A DNA stretch of 52,090 bases from a virus: positions 1 to 52,090 of the IMG/VR virus record IMGVR_UViG_3300025697_000033, one strand, 5' to 3'. Position numbers and translations under genes: made by a program. The notes below the pieces were generated by a model that was given only the letters and a program-made list of their open reading frames with translations, was not told the origin of the DNA and did not search any database. This document shows, piece by piece, positions 69 to 52,090 of the stretch. The first letter of the stretch is position 1; each line of letters begins with the position of its first letter.

Positions 69-128
69 GTCATTTCTCCTTGTATTGCCTAACCTATCCG
101 TAAACCGCACAATGCGGAATATACCCTT

Positions 129-478
129 GCCTCGCCCCGCCACGCCATGCCCCGCCTAGCCTCGCCCCGCCACGCCGCGCCAGGCCTTGAGAAAAGTCTT
201 TGTTGCATCCTTGCCTCGCCTTGCCTTGCCCTGCCCAGCCGCGCCTCGCCGCGCCTTGCCAAGCCACGCCTTGAGAAAGTCTTTGTTGTATCCATGCCTT
301 GCCTTGCCTCTCCAGTCCTGGCCGTGCCTCGCCTATCCGAGCCTCGCCACGCCAAGCCTTGCCTTGCCCCTCCAGGCCAAGCCTTGAGAAAGTCTTTGTT
401 GTATCCATGCCTCGCCCGTCCATGCCAGGCCGCGCCTTGCCATGCCTCTCCGCGCCCATCCACGCCGTGCCTCGCCAT
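129..478. repeat. Pentamer (KCCNN)n array, left allele
   Basis: On the plus strand the sequence is a nearly unbroken series of five-base units, GCC or occasionally TCC followed by two variable bases. It is interrupted by a conserved element (starting GAGAAAG, ending near GTATCCAT) at 189-212, 273-295 and 386-408. The blocks hold about 12, 12, 17 and 15 pentamers. Read on the minus strand the unit is NNGGC, which leaves every reading frame open. The array lies between terminator 479-528 and the gene beginning at 68 (51589). Confidence 0.95.
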
Positions 479-528
479 AAAAAAGCCCCAACTACGCAGA
501 GACCGGCGAAGGAATGCGCAATTAGGGC
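479..528 (-). terminator. Rho-independent terminator in attenuator element E1
   Basis: On the minus strand a 14-bp stem (528-515 with 498-485, including three G-U pairs) closes a 16-nt loop and is followed by six T residues (484-479). The loop carries a 12-nt segment (499-510) complementary to the 5' end of the predicted transcript (566-577). The right-end copy is 51969-52018. Confidence 0.85.
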
Positions 529-579
529 TAAACAGGATCGCTCCTGTAAAAACTCGCTATGTGATTTCGCCGATCTCAT
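479..579 (-). ncRNA. E1 leader RNA with loop-complementary 5' end
   Basis: The predicted transcript starts at the A of an ATG at 579, seven bases after the -10 box. Its first bases (577-566) pair over 12 nt, with one G-U, with the loop of the terminator (499-510), directly next to the terminator 3' arm. Between them sits a perfect 6-bp hairpin with a GCGA tetraloop (532-547). An ORF from the ATG (MRSAKSHSEF...) reads through the terminator into the pentamer array. The architecture matches E2 (33756-33913) and E3 (47692-47825). Function as attenuator or small RNA is inferred. Confidence 0.65.
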
Positions 580-585
580 ATTCAA

Positions 586-614
586 ACTATACTAGAAAAA
601 CCTTTGGATGTCAA
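586..614 (-). promoter_or_regulatory. Sigma-70 promoter of E1
   Basis: Minus-strand -35 TTGACA (614-609) and -10 TATAGT (591-586) are separated by exactly 17 bp. Six bases later an ATG begins at 579, at the expected transcription start. The promoter overlaps the 3' end of the small membrane-protein gene and drives the terminator, the array and, around the circle, the gene at 51589. Confidence 0.8.
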
Positions 615-31150: not shown

Positions 31151-32614
31151 CTAAATCAGCGTGTCGTCTTCTTCGTACTCCGGCATCGGCACCGGATCGT
31201 CATCAAACGCCGTCTGCTTCTTCGGCTCAGCGCGTTTGGCGCGGGCCGTGTTTTCCTCGTACTCGTTTACGTCTCGAAAACGCTGCGTTACCTTTTCAAA
31301 GTAGAGCGCGATTTCACCCGTGGGGCCGTTGCGCTGCTTAGCAAGGTGGAGTATCACGTCGCCCTGTAGCGTCATGCCTCGGGCCTTTGCCGCCGCCCTG
31401 TGGTCGTCGTCGATGAGCGCCAAACAAATCACCACATCCGCGTCTTGCTCCAAGTTGCCGGATTCGCGCAAACACGAAAGCAGCCGATGCCCGTCCATGA
31501 CACCATCCGCTTCCCGGCTCAGTTGCGCCAGCACGACGAACGGAATGTCCGCCTCCCGTGCCAGCGCCTTGATCCCGACGCTCATGTCACCCACGATCTC
31601 ATACCGCTTCTGGCCCGCCTTGCCGCCGCCCCTGAGTAGCTGGATGTAGTCGAGCACCACCAGCCCGCCCGGATGTTTCGCCGCCCATCGCCGCACCGCT
31701 GAGCGCATGCGCGGGAAGGTGAGCCCCGGCGTATCCAGGACATGTAGGTTTTCTTTCGTGATCCGCTCCTCTGCACTCAGGGCTTTTGTCACTTCCTGGG
31801 GCGCGAAGGTGCCTTTCTTGGATGCTTCCTTGATAACTTGCACGTTTACCCCGCATTCGATGCTGAGGATCCGCGTCCACAACGCCGAGGCCGACATTTC
31901 AAGCGAGATAAACAAGACTGGCACACCATCGCCGAAGGCAGCCTGTGCCGCGAAATTCAGGGCGATTGCAGTTTTTCCCACGGAGGGACGGGCCGCCAGA
32001 ATGATAAAGTCACCCTTCTGGAAACCGCCTGTGAGGCCGTCTAAGGCGTTTATGCCGCTTTGTACTCCCATCACACCACCCACGGCCTGGGTTAGCCGTC
32101 CAAGCCATTCTACCCCCAGCGCGAAGCCTTTTGGCGTTTCTATGACTTCCTGCTTTGCGCCGGAGCAGTTCGCCAATGCCAAAAGCTGCGTATCAATGAA
32201 GGCAGATGCTTCCTCTGGGCTTGGAAGCGTGTCCGCCGTGGCTATCCGGTTTAGGTCCGCGCCAATGCGCCCAAATTCACGGAGCAACCAGAAGCGGCGG
32301 ACGTGCTCAGCGTAATGCAGGACGTTCGCCGAGGTCGCAGCCACGCCGAGCATCTCTGAAACGTAGCCCACCCCGCCCATGGCATCGGAATTGGATTCGT
32401 CGGCGAGTATCAGTGATGGGTCAACCCGGCGGCCTTTGCCGTTGATGTCTTGGATCGCTGCGTAGAGCGCGGCATGGGGCGCAAACTCAAACATGGCGCC
32501 CGTGTCGCCCAAGAGCGCGAAAGCGTCCGCCGCAGCGTCGCCCGCGCCCTCGCAGATCATGAAGCTGGAAAGCACGGCGCGTTCGGCTTCGGTGGTTTGT
32601 TCGTGGGTGGTCAT
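31151..32614 (-). CDS. dnaB: Replicative DNA helicase, DnaB family
   Basis: This 487-residue protein unwinds DNA at the fork. The N-terminal DnaB domain (residues 1-140) starts EAERAVLSSFMICEG. The RecA-type ATPase has GGFQKGDFIILAARPSVGKT near residue 208-215 (Walker A) and LVVLDYIQLLRGGGK (Walker B), plus VVLAQLSREADG and LRESGNLEQDADVVICL typical of DnaB motifs 3-4. AAGGAGG precedes the ATG. It follows the initiator-like gene. Confidence 0.95.
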   Translation of the reverse strand: MTTHEQTTEAERAVLSSFMICEGAGDAAADAFALLGDTGAMFEFAPHAALYAAIQDINGKGRRVDPSLILADESNSDAMGGVGYVSEMLGVAATSANVLHYAEHVRRFWLLREFGRIGADLNRIATADTLPSPEEASAFIDTQLLALANCSGAKQEVIETPKGFALGVEWLGRLTQAVGGVMGVQSGINALDGLTGGFQKGDFIILAARPSVGKTAIALNFAAQAAFGDGVPVLFISLEMSASALWTRILSIECGVNVQVIKEASKKGTFAPQEVTKALSAEERITKENLHVLDTPGLTFPRMRSAVRRWAAKHPGGLVVLDYIQLLRGGGKAGQKRYEIVGDMSVGIKALAREADIPFVVLAQLSREADGVMDGHRLLSCLRESGNLEQDADVVICLALIDDDHRAAAKARGMTLQGDVILHLAKQRNGPTGEIALYFEKVTQRFRDVNEYEENTARAKRAEPKKQTAFDDDPVPMPEYEEDDTLI

Positions 32615-32678: not shown

Positions 32679-33554
32679 TTACTTCATCTTCTGATTCGCT
32701 GCAAGCCGGTCATACATTGCGTCGTTGTTGGTGTTTCCATTTCCGTTTCCAGGGGCACTGTTTCGTGCCTTCCATTTATCGTGCATTTGTTCAAACTTGG
32801 TAATCCCTGATTTTCCTGTTGAACGGAGCCGCACCAAAGACTTTACAACGGCCCGCCAAAAACCCGTGGGGTCTTCTTCGCCCGTGAATACCCATGTGAT
32901 AGTGTCCACCACATCCCGCTCGCTGTAGCCGTCAATACGCACCAGCCGGGAAAGGGTCAGCCTTGAAGCGTCATCCACCTTACTTTCGGGCTTCGGGGTT
33001 TTCTTCTGGTTGTGCGCCGCGTCAACCAGTGTCCAAATGCTCCAATATTCAGCCTTGAGTATCGGGAGTTTTTTAAGGGGATCCGAAAAAGGAAGGGAAG
33101 GGATCTCTTCTTTATCCTCTACTCTACTCTCCTCTACTCTATGGCCTAGGGCTTGAGTGGGTTGAGCCTCGGGCTTAGCCATAGGCTCAGAGCTTTTAGC
33201 TATGGGCTTAGCCTTAGGCTTAGCCTCTTGGGCTTCTTTGCGCTTCTTTGCCTTGCTCTTCGTTGCAGCCCCGCCCTTAACATAGTTTGGCGCATGTTGC
33301 CAATAGTCGTGTATTTCAACGTATTCGCCACACTCGTCCATCCACCCAAACATCAAAAGCGCACCAAGAAATTCGCCTTCTATCCCATTCCACTCAGCAT
33401 GAGCCTCAACATCTTCACGGGACATGCGCGGATTGGCGTCTATGTTTGCCTGGTTCCATAAATACTCAAGATGCCCCAAAACATGCGGCGCTGGAATATC
33501 TAGCGCAAGCCGCAATTTTTTGAATTTTGTTAACATCGTTGTGTCTTTACGCAT
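32679..33554 (-). CDS. Putative replication initiator / helicase loader-like protein
   Basis: This 291-residue protein shows an N-terminal winged-helix-like part (FKKLRLALDIPAPHVLGHLE, YLWNQANIDANP), a Lys/Ala/Pro-rich linker and a C-terminal helical part (GYSERDVVDTITWVFTGEED, PTGFWRAVVKSLVRL). This arrangement is common in phage O-type or DnaD-like replication proteins encoded next to DnaB. ATG at 33554 has AGGTGA upstream and overlaps the previous gene by eight bases. GTG at 33563 is possible. Confidence 0.75.
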   Translation of the reverse strand: MRKDTTMLTKFKKLRLALDIPAPHVLGHLEYLWNQANIDANPRMSREDVEAHAEWNGIEGEFLGALLMFGWMDECGEYVEIHDYWQHAPNYVKGGAATKSKAKKRKEAQEAKPKAKPIAKSSEPMAKPEAQPTQALGHRVEESRVEDKEEIPSLPFSDPLKKLPILKAEYWSIWTLVDAAHNQKKTPKPESKVDDASRLTLSRLVRIDGYSERDVVDTITWVFTGEEDPTGFWRAVVKSLVRLRSTGKSGITKFEQMHDKWKARNSAPGNGNGNTNNDAMYDRLAANQKMK

Positions 33555-33759
33555 GGCCGTCACCTGAAACGGAAAGCGCCTTTTGTGCTATTTTTCCTAG
33601 AGTGTCTTTTCTGCCTGAATACATCTTCAATGCAAACTCGAAAAGCAAATAGCCTTCATGGTAGCCGCCCGATTCACCGCTTGTTTTCATAGATGCAAGC
33701 ATCTCGCCAATTTCAACGCCAACGAAGTCATCAAGTTCTTTTTGCACATTTTTGTTCAT
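33547..33759 (-). CDS. Small protein coupled to E2 leader ORF
   Basis: This 70-residue protein (MNKNVQKELDDFVGVEIGE...) is helical. Its ATG overlaps the TGA of the leader ORF 33756-33878, and its end overlaps the replication initiator. It is thus the first gene whose translation depends on passing the E2 attenuator. Function unknown. Confidence 0.65.
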   Translation of the reverse strand: MNKNVQKELDDFVGVEIGEMLASMKTSGESGGYHEGYLLFEFALKMYSGRKDTLGKIAQKALSVSGDGHA

Positions 33760-33878
33760 GGTGTCACCTCAAAAAAGAAGCCCCGATCACGAGACACTCG
33801 GCCAAGAGGGTGTGATCGGGGCTTTAGCCATCCGAAGATGGTTTTTGGTTTTTGCTTGTCTTTGGCCGTGTGTCTCAT
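33756..33878 (-). CDS. E2 leader ORF, leaderless ATG (40 aa)
   Basis: The ORF starts at the ATG at the predicted +1 and encodes MRHTAKDKQKPKTIFGWLKP and a basic C-terminal half containing GRVSRDRGFFF, where the last residues come from the terminator stem and T-run. It stops in an ATGA overlap with the next gene. There is no RBS, so translation would be leaderless. It is likely a leader peptide of a translation-coupled attenuator rather than a functional protein. Confidence 0.55.
   Translation of the reverse strand: MRHTAKDKQKPKTIFGWLKPRSHPLGRVSRDRGFFFEVTP
33772..33822 (-). terminator. Terminator in attenuator E2
   Basis: GCCCCGATCAC and its exact complement (11 bp) enclose a 21-nt loop, followed by TTCTTTTTTG on the minus strand. 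The loop includes 33791-33805, complementary to the transcript start at 33862-33876. Confidence 0.9.
33772..33878 (-). ncRNA. E2 leader RNA with loop-complementary 5' end
   Basis: The predicted RNA starts at 33878 (A of ATG). Its bases 33876-33862 pair over 15 nt, with one A-A mismatch, with the terminator loop 33805-33791, adjacent to the 3' arm. A UUCG-tetraloop hairpin CCATC-GATGG (33828-33841) lies between. A finished terminated RNA would be about 105 nt. Attenuator or small RNA role is inferred. Confidence 0.7.
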
Positions 33879-33884
33879 GTCTCT

Positions 33885-33913
33885 ATTTTATCCTATTTTC
33901 CGTGGGCTGTCAA
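33885..33913 (-). promoter_or_regulatory. Sigma-70 promoter of E2 (replication operon)
   Basis: TTGACA (33913-33908) and TAAAAT (33890-33885) are 17 bp apart on the minus strand. Six bases follow before the ATG at 33878. The promoter lies in a 207-bp gap after the 60-residue gene ending at 33967. Confidence 0.85.
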
Positions 33914-46200: not shown

Positions 46201-46256
46201 AAAAATGCCCGCTCGGCGTGCGAACCGAGCGGGCTGGGCGGCGAAGGATCCGCCCA
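46201..46256 (-). terminator. Double hairpin terminator, copy 1
   Basis: On the minus strand TGGGCGG...CCGCCCA (7 bp) is followed by GCCCGCTCGG...CCGAGCGGGC (10 bp) and CATTTTTGTG. It ends the minus operon where it faces the plus-strand island. Copy 2 is at 47831-47886. Confidence 0.85.
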
Positions 46257-46287
46257 GGGGATAGGGGTGGGGGGTGCCCCGAGGGTG

Positions 46288-46755
46288 CTATTGATTGCTG
46301 GCTTGTGAAACTAGCATTGCCTCGCGGACGGTGATCTCTGGGGTGTTTTGCATGAGGGGTGCCATCATATCTTTGAATTGCTGAAACTCATCCAGCTTCT
46401 TAGAGGCATTTGCCACGTTGTCAATACGGACAACCTCGGCAGAACACACGTCGGCCCACCGCGCATCTTCAAGAAATTTGTAAACGGTATCACCCTCCAG
46501 CCCTTTTACGCAGAGGATGCCGGGGAGATCAAGCCCCGGCAGAGACATCTGCTGGTCAAAGTCCGAAGATGGAGAACGTGAGTTTAGACGGGTGCGAACA
46601 TATGCCGCACACCCGTACTCTTGGAAGTGCTCACCAGCCTCAATCGCCTCGTCAGGATACCATTCGCGGAATCTTTCAACGATGGTAGCCACATGGCTAC
46701 CGCCGCCTTCAAGACACCTATCTATGGCTTTGCTTATTGCTTCTTTCCACTGCAT
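46288..46755 (-). CDS. Unrecognised protein downstream of ParB-like gene
   Basis: This 155-residue protein (MQWKEAISKAIDRCLEGGGS, VATIVERFREWYPDEAIEAG) overlaps the ParB-like gene by 22 bp. AAAGGATAG precedes ATG at 46755. Probably a partner of the ParB-like protein; function unknown. Confidence 0.6.
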   Translation of the reverse strand: MQWKEAISKAIDRCLEGGGSHVATIVERFREWYPDEAIEAGEHFQEYGCAAYVRTRLNSRSPSSDFDQQMSLPGLDLPGILCVKGLEGDTVYKFLEDARWADVCSAEVVRIDNVANASKKLDEFQQFKDMMAPLMQNTPEITVREAMLVSQASNQ

Positions 46756-47681
46756 TTTTCTATCCTTTCTTTCCATGCTAAAGAGAAATCAAGCACCCAC
46801 TGTAGCTGCTCTTTTATCTCTTGAAACTCTTCAATATCCCAGTCGCTCATTTCTTCCACAACCTCATACGGGTCTGGAAGATCGACAAGCCGTCGAATTG
46901 CAGATCGCACATTAGATGCGCGGCCTCGCCGTTCCCACTCGTCAATGCCCATGGCATCCACCATGGCGTTCCCGGCTTCTTGTAGCCGCTGCACCGATTC
47001 GTTGTGCTCCTTGATCTTCTTCTTCTTCTTTTCGTGTTTCGCTACCTCCTGCCGGGCAACCTTGCCGATCACACCCGGTTCGTTTTTCAGTATGTCCATT
47101 TCTTGCTCTGGGGTCAGGTCGGCTACCTTGGCTGCAACCGAGACGGGGAGGATGCCGTCTTCCACTGCCTGCAACAATTCGGGCGTGCCGTCTTTGATCA
47201 CCTTGCGGGCACGTTTGATGGACCCAGTTGAAACGCCCACGGCATTTGCTGCGTCTTGGATGGAAGTGGATGGATCTTGAGATCCCTCCACTTTTTCATC
47301 TGCATATTGATTGGTCCCGTGCTTCAAATTCGCCACCTTCGCCCCCACCACAGAACATTGGCTCTCGCTCAGATGCCGCCGCTTCAGGTTCAGGCTCACC
47401 ACGAACGCCGCTATGCTCTCTTCGTCGCCATTGTACGTCCTAGCCTCGACACTGCGTCCAAGCTCGGCACAGGCCAACACACGGTGCTTGCCGTCGATAA
47501 CATGCCCATCTCCGTTCACCCACACCGGCTCCCGCTGCCCGTGTTGCCGGATGTCCTCCACCAAGTCGGAAAACTCCGTCTCCGTCATTTTAGGAAACAA
47601 GTCTGCCGCCGGGTGCATGATCGCATCTTCAGCTATTATCCGATTCATTTGTACGCCCCTTCCTTTGTCTTCGAGTTCCAT
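46734..47681 (-). CDS. ParB/RepB-like DNA-binding protein
   Basis: This 315-residue protein has the ParB N-terminal nuclease-fold box: MTETEFSDLVEDIRQHGQRE, then WVNGDGHVIDGKHRVLACAE, followed by an HTH (IQDAANAVGVSTGSIKRARK) and a basic coiled C-terminal region. No ParA is nearby, so regulation of transcription or replication is as likely as partition. AAAGGATAAAC lies before ATG, behind attenuator E3. Confidence 0.85.
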   Translation of the reverse strand: MELEDKGRGVQMNRIIAEDAIMHPAADLFPKMTETEFSDLVEDIRQHGQREPVWVNGDGHVIDGKHRVLACAELGRSVEARTYNGDEESIAAFVVSLNLKRRHLSESQCSVVGAKVANLKHGTNQYADEKVEGSQDPSTSIQDAANAVGVSTGSIKRARKVIKDGTPELLQAVEDGILPVSVAAKVADLTPEQEMDILKNEPGVIGKVARQEVAKHEKKKKKIKEHNESVQRLQEAGNAMVDAMGIDEWERRGRASNVRSAIRRLVDLPDPYEVVEEMSDWDIEEFQEIKEQLQWVLDFSLAWKERIEKCSGKKQ

Positions 47682-47691
47682 GTTTATCCTT

Positions 47692-47790
47692 TCAAAAGAA
47701 AACCCCGCCCGCGCATGAACCGACAAGAACAAATGCGGGCAGGGAGATCCGGCTTTCGCCAAAAGATTTTATGTTTGGGTGTCGGTCCAT
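47692..47790 (-). CDS. E3 leader ORF, leaderless ATG (32 aa)
   Basis: From the ATG at predicted +1 the ORF (MDRHPNIKSFGESRISLPAF and on to CAGGVFF) passes through the E3 terminator and stops ten bases before the ParB-like ATG. There is no RBS. Same design as E1 and E2. Confidence 0.5.
   Translation of the reverse strand: MDRHPNIKSFGESRISLPAFVLVGSCAGGVFF
47694..47744 (-). terminator. Terminator in attenuator E3
   Basis: CCCTGCCCGC with GCGGGCGGGG (10 bp, one G-U) around a 22-nt loop, followed by TTTTCTTTTG on the minus strand. The loop contains 47715-47725, complementary to the transcript start. Confidence 0.85.
47694..47790 (-). ncRNA. E3 leader RNA with loop-complementary 5' end
   Basis: Predicted RNA starts at 47790 (A of ATG). 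Bases 47790-47780 pair over 11 nt, one G-U, with terminator loop 47725-47715. A GGC-GAAA-GCC hairpin (47751-47760) lies between. Function inferred from E1 and E2. Confidence 0.65.
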
Positions 47791-47796
47791 CTTCTT

Positions 47797-47825
47797 ATTG
47801 TATAACAAATCGTCCGAGCTGTCAA
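47797..47825 (-). promoter_or_regulatory. Sigma-70 promoter of E3 (ParB-like operon)
   Basis: TTGACA (47825-47820) and TACAAT (47802-47797) are 17 bp apart; six bases follow before ATG at 47790. It lies immediately after the terminator copy 2. Confidence 0.85.
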
Positions 47826-47830
47826 TGCAC

Positions 47831-47886
47831 AAAAGCGCCCGCTCGGCGTGGGAACCGAGCGGGCCGGGCGGCGAAGGATCCGCCCG
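47831..47886 (-). terminator. Double hairpin terminator, copy 2
   Basis: Same two hairpins as at 46201-46256 with small changes and a T-run TTTTG. It ends the lysis operon just upstream of promoter E3. Confidence 0.85.
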
Positions 47887-47914
47887 TGGGATGGGGTGGG
47901 TGGCCCCGAGGGTG

Positions 47915-49735: not shown

Positions 49736-49812
49736 TGGTAGCGGCGACGGGACTCGAACCCGTGAACTGCTGCGTATGAAACAGCCGAGATGACCATCTT
49801 CTCCACACCGCG
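49736..49812 (-). tRNA. tRNA-Met (CAT), initiator-like
   Basis: The 77-nt sequence folds into a full cloverleaf with encoded CCA. Acceptor CGCGGTG/CGCCGCT has an unpaired C1-U72, D stem is GAGA/TCTC giving A11-U24, anticodon loop TTCATAC has anticodon CAT, and the T arm is ACGGG-TTCGAGT-CCCGT. The first two features mark initiator tRNAs, but the anticodon stem (GCTGT/GCAGC) lacks the three G-C pairs. A promoter lies upstream at 49911-49939. Confidence 0.9.
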
Positions 49813-51025: not shown

Positions 51026-51589
51026 TTACACCACCAAGAACCGCCCAAACTTCGGACGGAAATCACACACGCCCTCATACATCCCCGCCGCCTCAATCGC
51101 CGTCTCAAGTTGCTCCAACTCGATCACTGTATTGTCAAACTGGATGGCAAACTCCGCGCTCCACTCATGGAAGATGGGCCGCGTTCTCACAATCCGCGCC
51201 ATCCCAACCTTAACGAGCCGTTGGTCAACAAAACTCTTATCCGCCCACAGCGCGTCAATACCCTTCGGCCCGCTGTACTTCAGCGCCGCGTCGCCATCAC
51301 AGAAGATCGACGCCTTGAAAGCCTTCCCGAGTTTGCTTTTCTTCGCGCCCGACACCAAACACGCCTCGACATATTCGCTCGGGATGCACGGGTGTCCTTT
51401 GCCGTTAAGCAACAGGCTCCCGTACCATTCTACCTCGGCCATTTGCTCGTAGGTTTCTTCGGTCTTGTTTCGCTTGCCGCTGAGTTTTTTGAGCCGTTGC
51501 GTCCATTCGTTCATCGGGTTCGCCAATTGTCCATTGTGCATAATTAGCGGCGCGATGCCTTTCACTTGGAACGTCTTTTGTTTCAACAT
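51026..51589 (-). CDS. Unrecognised phage protein between two pentamer arrays
   Basis: This 187-residue protein starts MLKQKTFQVKGIAPLIMHNG and ends EGVCDFRPKFGRFLVV; its middle has PCIPSEYVEACLVSGAKKSK. The end motif 'G..DFRPKFGRF' recalls a conserved phage protein family I cannot name with certainty. AGGAGAA lies before ATG at 51589. In the right-hand allele the array upstream is in frame with it, but in the left allele it is not, so the array is not part of the protein. Confidence 0.75.
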   Translation of the reverse strand: MLKQKTFQVKGIAPLIMHNGQLANPMNEWTQRLKKLSGKRNKTEETYEQMAEVEWYGSLLLNGKGHPCIPSEYVEACLVSGAKKSKLGKAFKASIFCDGDAALKYSGPKGIDALWADKSFVDQRLVKVGMARIVRTRPIFHEWSAEFAIQFDNTVIELEQLETAIEAAGMYEGVCDFRPKFGRFLVV

Positions 51590-51649
51590 GTCATTTCTCC
51601 TTGTATTGCCTAACCTATCCATAAACCGCACAATGCGGAATATACCCTT

Positions 51650-51968
51650 GCCCAGCCTCGCCTCTCCCAGCCTTGCCTTGCCACGCCCCGCCTCGCCTTG
51701 CCACGCCGTGAGAAAGTCTTTGTTGTATCCATGCCTTGCCTCGCCTTGCCTTGCCAGGCCGCGCCTCGCCCATCCAGGCCAAGCCATGCCCTGAGAAAGT
51801 CTTTGTTGTATCCATGCCTCGCCTTGCCCTGCCCAGCCGCGCCGCGCCATGCCACGCCAAGCCGCGCCCTGAAAAAGTCTTTGTTGTATCCTTGCCTCGC
51901 CTATCCCGTCCCCGCCTCGCCTCGCCATGCCGATCCATGCCAAGCCGGACCACTCCATGCCGAGCCAT
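51650..51968. repeat. Pentamer (KCCNN)n array, right allele
   Basis: Four blocks of about 11-16 pentamers with conserved elements at 51710-51732, 51793-51815 and 51871-51893. Same place as the left array relative to flanking genes but different variable dinucleotides at nearly all positions. Confidence 0.95.
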
Positions 51969-52018
51969 AAAAAAGCCCCAACTACGCAGAGACCGGCGAA
52001 GGAATGCGCAATTAGGGC
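51969..52018 (-). terminator. Terminator of E1, right-end copy
   Basis: Exact copy of 479-528: a 14-bp G-U-containing stem, a 16-nt loop with the 12-nt pairing segment and six T residues before the array. Confidence 0.85.
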
Positions 52019-52090
52019 TAAACAGGATCGCTCCTGTAAAAACTCGCTATGTGATTTCGCCGATCTCATATTCAAACTATACTAGAAAAA

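Follow-up and report, generated by a model that had tools for sequence, protein, structure and literature searches.

In pT181 and pIP501 copy control, an RNA shifts folding of the nascent leader towards an intrinsic terminator, its codes define incompatibility groups, and the inhibitor is a separate counter-transcript made from the opposite strand. The lambda cI mRNA, a phage transcript, is leaderless and begins with its AUG. In P1 and P7, the C4 RNA (RF01695) is a same-strand antisense RNA located before an anti-repressor gene; according to its annotation it acts on translation, through short target sites of two types, a and b, located around the start of icd, and its stem has no T tract. The CI RNA of P4 also comes from the same strand, from the leader of the replication operon, where complementary segments lead to premature termination, as set out in PMC4825925, which cites Sabbattini 1995 and Briani 2000 on this point. 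For Gifsy-1, IsrK is presented as a terminated leader RNA upstream of an anti-repressor, whose target in trans is its own read-through transcript: pairing with orf45, which lies beyond the terminator, activates translation (PMC4825925).

The window analysed here, a stretch of 52,090 nt of viral DNA (IMG/VR record IMGVR_UViG_3300025697_000033), carries three elements, E1, E2 and E3 (Table 1), in which the predicted 5′ end of a transcript (S1a) and a loop segment (S1b) of the intrinsic terminator that follows it are complementary; we call their pairing S1. E2 had been described as a leaderless attenuator with the order TTGACA, 17 bp, TAAAAT, 6 bp and ATG, and this order is present as claimed, with +1 here and in E1 and E3 being a prediction from promoter spacing alone. 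The E2 segment GAGACACACGGCCAA (33876-33862) pairs at 14 of 15 positions with TTGGCCGAGTGTCTC of the terminator loop (33805-33791), adjoining the 3′ arm, and the pairing grows to 16 of 17 with one G-U and two bases of that arm. All 13 pairs of the terminator stem are perfect. The UUCG hairpin between the 5′ segment and the terminator and the 40-codon reading frame from the +1 ATG, whose stop falls within CCATGAAC, are likewise as originally reported. A DNA similarity search with E2 in phages found none.

Table 1. Positions of the elements and associated genes in the window
Feature	Position	Strand	Remarks
E2 promoter TTGACA-17-TAAAAT	33885..33913	-	11/12 consensus positions
E2 -35 TTGACA	33913-33908	-	
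E2 -10 TAAAAT	33890-33885	-	6 bp before the ATG
E2 ATG	33878-33876	-	
E2 S1a, predicted transcript 5′ end including ATG	33862..33878	-	pairs with S1b, 16/17 including G-U
E2 UUCG tetraloop hairpin	33828..33841	-	from sequence and predicted fold
E2 intrinsic terminator	33778..33824	-	13-bp stem, 21-nt loop, T-rich tail after
E2 S1b, loop segment complementary to 5′ end	33789..33807	-	2 nt into 3′ arm
E2 leader ORF, 40 codons	33756..33878	-	open through terminator; stop overlaps next start
70-aa orphan gene, first in E2-driven operon	33547..33759	-	no family match
Replication initiation protein	32679..33563	-	phrog_9474
DnaB-like helicase	31151..32614	-	
E1	47703..47825	-	
E1 promoter	47825-47797	-	
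E1 S1a	47790-47780	-	
E1 hairpin	47763-47748	-	
E1 terminator	47744-47703	-	
E1 S1b	47725-47715	-	
ParB-like gene behind E1	46734..47681	-	phrog_4715, phrog_21315
E3	484..614	-	
E3 promoter	614-586	-	
E3 S1a	577-566	-	
E3 GCGA hairpin	547-532	-	
E3 terminator	529-484	-	
E3 S1b	510-499	-	
phrog_4652 gene behind E3	51026..51589	-	whole only at contig right end, which repeats left
tRNA-Met (CAT) gene	49736-49812	-	

E1 and E3 were said to copy the geometry of E2 exactly. The order of parts is indeed the same in all three, with a sigma-70 promoter, S1a at +1, S1b in the terminator loop and a gene behind, but the lengths of loop, linker and stem differ. Pairing covers 11 positions in E1 (47825) and 12 in E3 (614), with one G-U in each. 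The layouts are thus alike and the pairing sequences unrelated, as the preliminary description held; global-alignment identities carry no information for segments this short, as they are inflated by gaps. None of the three codes pairs with either of the others (cross scores 13-16 versus self scores 25-34). Other strong promoters of the window (43052, minus strand; 43158, plus strand) have ordinary leaders with Shine-Dalgarno sites.

The simplest alternative is chance complementarity picked out by eye, and E1 taken alone is a weak case, since 370 of 20,000 dinucleotide-shuffled 5′ segments reach its observed score (p ~0.02). The same shuffling places E2 and E3 beyond chance (2 and 1 of 20,000, respectively; p ~1e-4 or less).

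The suggested likeness in logic to the P4 and P1 immunity RNAs is supported, and the anatomies differ. E2 stands before an initiator and DnaB and, as in P4, has same-strand complementary segments in the leader of a replication operon. In P4, however, the near-start segment (seqA-like, ~+20 to +40) pairs ~250 nt downstream and not in a terminator loop, with the nearest T-tailed hairpin between the two paired segments, and CI RNA, unlike the window elements, arises by processing and has two targets. Rather than an inhibitor in a separate processed hairpin well downstream, E1-E3 have their segment inside the terminator loop. Where C4 has two segments around the icd ribosome-binding site, each element has one segment pair whose target is the transcript 5′ end, and the RF01695 covariance model found no match in the window or in 16 loci of further members described below. 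Among all Rfam families, only tRNAs matched in the window (E <= 1) and these 16 loci, so that no family match to an IsrK-like dual RNA appeared there. The pT181 and pIP501 systems are alike in the shift towards leader termination and in their diverging codes and differ in the opposite-strand inhibitor; lambda cI has the 5′-end AUG in common and lacks both terminator and self-pairing. IsrK, as presented in PMC4825925, sets a precedent in that a terminated leader there acts on the read-through RNA of the same kind, and is set apart by that account, which describes no pairing between 5′ end and terminator loop. We found no description of this layout in the open-access literature, which is weak evidence of absence; the anatomy appears to be new and widespread, and of the same-strand antisense/attenuation kind.

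With no sequence common to the pairing segments to go by, we searched by layout. Viral contigs (IMG/VR) were scanned for promoter, spacing and T tract, and a script then required a terminator with loop complementarity to the first ~24 nt after the -10. Requiring a consensus promoter and a T tract of members biases the set, and the frequencies given here are those of samples. At least 41 distinct elements were collected, all those outside the window coming from metagenomic contigs. The notion of a three-member family was therefore too narrow, as was confinement to the window phage or to replication genes: elements occur in other contigs and before other kinds of gene.

Among the matches listed for the first loci, 14 of 54 ATG candidates scored >=20 versus 0.7 expected from swapped 5′ segments, a count for which an ATG was mostly required and which includes the window and overlapping fetches of it. 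When no ATG was required, 16 of 97 new candidates reached this score (1.6 expected from the same swap) and pairing was present in 21 of 99 promoter-terminator leaders of the whole set, both among the matches listed. Two control segments upstream of the start gave 1/101 and 0/102, and the 24 nt following the 5′ segment gave 4/61 with none at >=24, again among the matches listed. Bacterial genomes searched with the same ATG pattern showed no excess (2 of 44 at >=20 and none at >=24 among the matches listed). In a promoter-free scan of this same viral DNA, a -10-like motif ended 6-8 nt before S1a in 19 of 34 strong cases versus 18 of 226 weak ones. Given this strong excess in the scan without ATG and the shuffling results for E2 and E3, the probability that we leave to chance complementarity is close to nil, and the positional, swap and bacterial-genome controls rule it out.

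S1a begins at +1 ± 2 in 30 of the 41 collected elements. The comparison shows a common predicted anatomy: a strong sigma-70-type promoter, an S1a of ~10-20 nt, an S1b in the terminator loop ~60 to 100 nt further on, and a gene. Named phages with relatives of member replication genes (Moorella, Paenibacillus, Vibrio, Paraburkholderia, Porphyromonas and Flavonifractor phages) had no clear element upstream; relatives of the HNH genes in other contigs, isolate prophages included, had no clear element either, with a weak one in L365. No named, cultured phage carrying a clear element was found in these checks. A borderline element, with S1 from ~+9, lies on the reverse strand at ~343 of L400 (Moorella mulderi DSM 14980), a bacterial genome and the only plausible candidate in a named organism.

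The pairing persists while its sequence changes. Homologues were sought by a motif outside S1, TTTTTTAT..GCCC..TAGTATGC, which returned six contigs; five carry homologous elements, and S1 is kept in all five with several different sequences. Across 16 pairs in this small and partly related set of five sequences, 91% of cells pair, both sides have changed in 8 of the 16, and the covariation score is 0.531 versus 0.294 when shuffled (reached by 0 of 500), with all slid registers lower (at most 0.28). The window phage's own kind offers no covariation, since the IMG/VR relatives of the E2-operon initiator and helicase are only near-identical contigs of metagenome 3300023257. Symmetric mismatch scoring of the S1 helices of the 41 elements gave 482 Watson-Crick, 16 G-U, 5 A-C and 10 other pairs, and an excess of G-U over A-C fits RNA but would not be looked for in a repeat acting as DNA. 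Two-sided changes that keep the pairing and this mismatch bias both point to RNA as the acting form. By these sequence comparisons, maintenance of S1 pairing at the RNA level is shown.

The same evidence bears on a DNA-level inverted repeat, such as an operator or a site recognised by an endonuclease, in the region next to the promoter. The segments are inverted repeats in the DNA, and many downstream genes encode DNA-binding or DNA-cutting enzymes, but one of the arms starts close to or at the predicted +1 while its partner is part of a terminator loop, the mismatches lean towards G-U, and segments upstream of the start show no complementarity; we consider this explanation very improbable. 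In five contigs (L294, L310, L489, L490 and L492), the terminator hairpin has a conserved AGUA/GAA internal loop and TGCG/CGCA pairs, and the loop may resemble the loop-E (sarcin-ricin) motif. L489 (promoter ~385, reverse strand) and L492 (~4517, reverse strand) hold second elements in the same contigs, with an extra T-tailed hairpin between 5′ segment and terminator.

The +1 ATG, central to the preliminary description, is truly associated with the elements: an ATG at +7/+8 from the -10 occurs in 8 of 21 elements versus 3 of 84 other candidates among the matches listed (Fisher p 8e-5). It is not a defining feature, as most elements from the no-ATG scan lack it. Within the ATG subclass, the leader ORF stays open across the whole terminator in 16 of 18 cases versus 20 of 45 (p 0.0016), mostly ending 10-25 nt past it, near the next start codon. 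Open leader ORFs and ATG enrichment together make leader translation likely to matter in a subclass; the ORF that a leader-peptide attenuator would need is enriched in that subclass and absent from the majority. Both observations favour an attenuator acting in cis only, in which the 5′-end:loop pairing and the terminator would be alternative structures, a ribosome on the 5′ AUG, or another 5′-end ligand, would decide which of them forms, and no RNA would act in trans. This ribosome-read switch is the main rival to trans action, though on balance we think it rather unlikely: a ribosome as deciding agent is possible but unneeded for the ATG-less majority, and a cis need alone would not lead one to expect codes that are wholly replaced from one near relative, or one cassette of the same genome, to the next.

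Such code replacement is seen in near relatives. The L012 and L128 initiators are 97% identical and their promoters alike at 27 of 29 positions, with different pairing codes, and in L128 an HNH gene lies between the element and the initiator. Where one genome holds several elements (the window, L171 and L290), these do not cross-pair (cross 10-20, self 23-40). Replication initiators stand behind E2 and the L012, L186, L340 and L185 elements; in L290 the downstream gene is an initiator by resemblance to named initiators only. HNH endonuclease genes follow the elements of L128, L170 and L197, two in L294 and those of three L171 cassettes (one scanned); anti-repressor genes follow in L248 (Rha) and L263 (Bro-N), a methyltransferase gene in L183 and a ParB-like gene behind E1. 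These genes resemble the targets of P4 CI RNA (replication) and P1 C4 (anti-repressor). Genes for HNH endonucleases and methyltransferases do not belong to the classic targets of immunity, a point against the mechanism proposed below.

In most elements, a gene with a Shine-Dalgarno-like start begins 8-27 nt past the terminator stem. This is the position of an attenuator. What stands of the original proposal is that the start of the transcript pairs with the loop of the terminator, that this pairing is conserved although its sequence is not, and that it is placed as an attenuator before replication genes. The gene position also argues against a stable small RNA that acts elsewhere (on other phages, host RNAs or a rival's matching element), with gene read-through secondary and the 5′-end:loop pairing capping or dimerising the RNA. 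A strong promoter and terminator, long specific pairing segments, and the lack of a clear gene directly behind the L269 and L282 elements would suit such an RNA; together with the gene position, the absence from the window of any conspicuous second site for the E1-E3 segments makes it improbable.

We propose, with our confidence about evenly divided, that E1-E3 belong to a family of phage RNA attenuators that target themselves, combining cis pairing with trans shut-off. S1 would form once the loop is made, ahead of the terminator 3′ arm, and would trap the 5′ arm in the paired loop, favouring read-through at the onset of phage transcription. A fraction of the transcripts would terminate, yielding a ~90-110-nt RNA that displays S1b in its loop. 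Like P4 CI RNA, this RNA would act against transcripts of its own kind, pairing in trans with S1a of new transcripts and blocking the antiterminator and, where present, the leaderless AUG, so that the terminator folds and the gene is turned off. The predicted outcome is an early pulse, self-specific shut-off and immunity against elements that share the code. Members of the ATG subclass would in addition be coupled to the next gene by ribosomes reading the leader ORF through the terminator.

Predicted folds bear on this mechanism in two ways. S1 is present in 38 of 41 folds of the nascent RNA ending at S1b. With median lengths of 13 bp for S1, 11 bp for the stem, and 11 and 6 nt for the connectors, coexistence of full S1 and stem as a pseudoknot looks strained in many members because the connectors are short. 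The nascent fold and this strain together make S1 a natural first-forming antiterminator. Nested folding of the full leader, on the other hand, gives the terminator in 22 of 41 and S1 in 17 of 41, so that the modelled default state is not uniform across elements, which counts against the proposed mechanism.

That the terminated RNA, acting in trans, would decide occupancy of the 5′ end is the reading we favour, at a confidence of about one half, because codes in the same genome do not cross-pair, because the L012 and L128 codes differ and because the pairing is longer than a cis switch needs. Against it, compensatory changes would leave a cis-only switch equally free to alter its code. The broader claim, to which we give a little less than even credence, is that the terminated leader RNA is both the product of a promoter and a sequence-specific inhibitor of the transcripts from that promoter, in a widespread system, with hypervariable codes, orthogonal copies and immunity groups between related phages. 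If true, a small RNA code would govern replication initiators, homing-type endonucleases and anti-repressors in many phages, and a change in both segments of the pair would create a new specificity. RNA-based immunity and incompatibility would then be much more frequent than the handful of known examples (P4, P1/P7) suggests. The layout would give a simple search rule for elements missed by sequence-based family searches such as Rfam, and the elements a ready set of orthogonal transcription switches.

The surroundings of E3 and E1 in the window have features of their own. Between E3 and its gene (80-480, minus strand) lie degenerate GGC-type repeats (GGCATGG, GGCAAGG, GGCGTGG and others); the E3 leader frame stays open for 161 codons. 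Positions 1-569 and 51522-52090 are direct repeats that are ~84% identical, gaps included, and the contig therefore probably overlaps itself over the repeated region; a second copy of E3, without its -35, lies at the right end. The ParB-like cassette behind E1 (46205-47910, minus strand) is flanked by two copies of one ~80-bp stretch that end in the same terminator, which suggests that it was inserted as a self-contained cassette.
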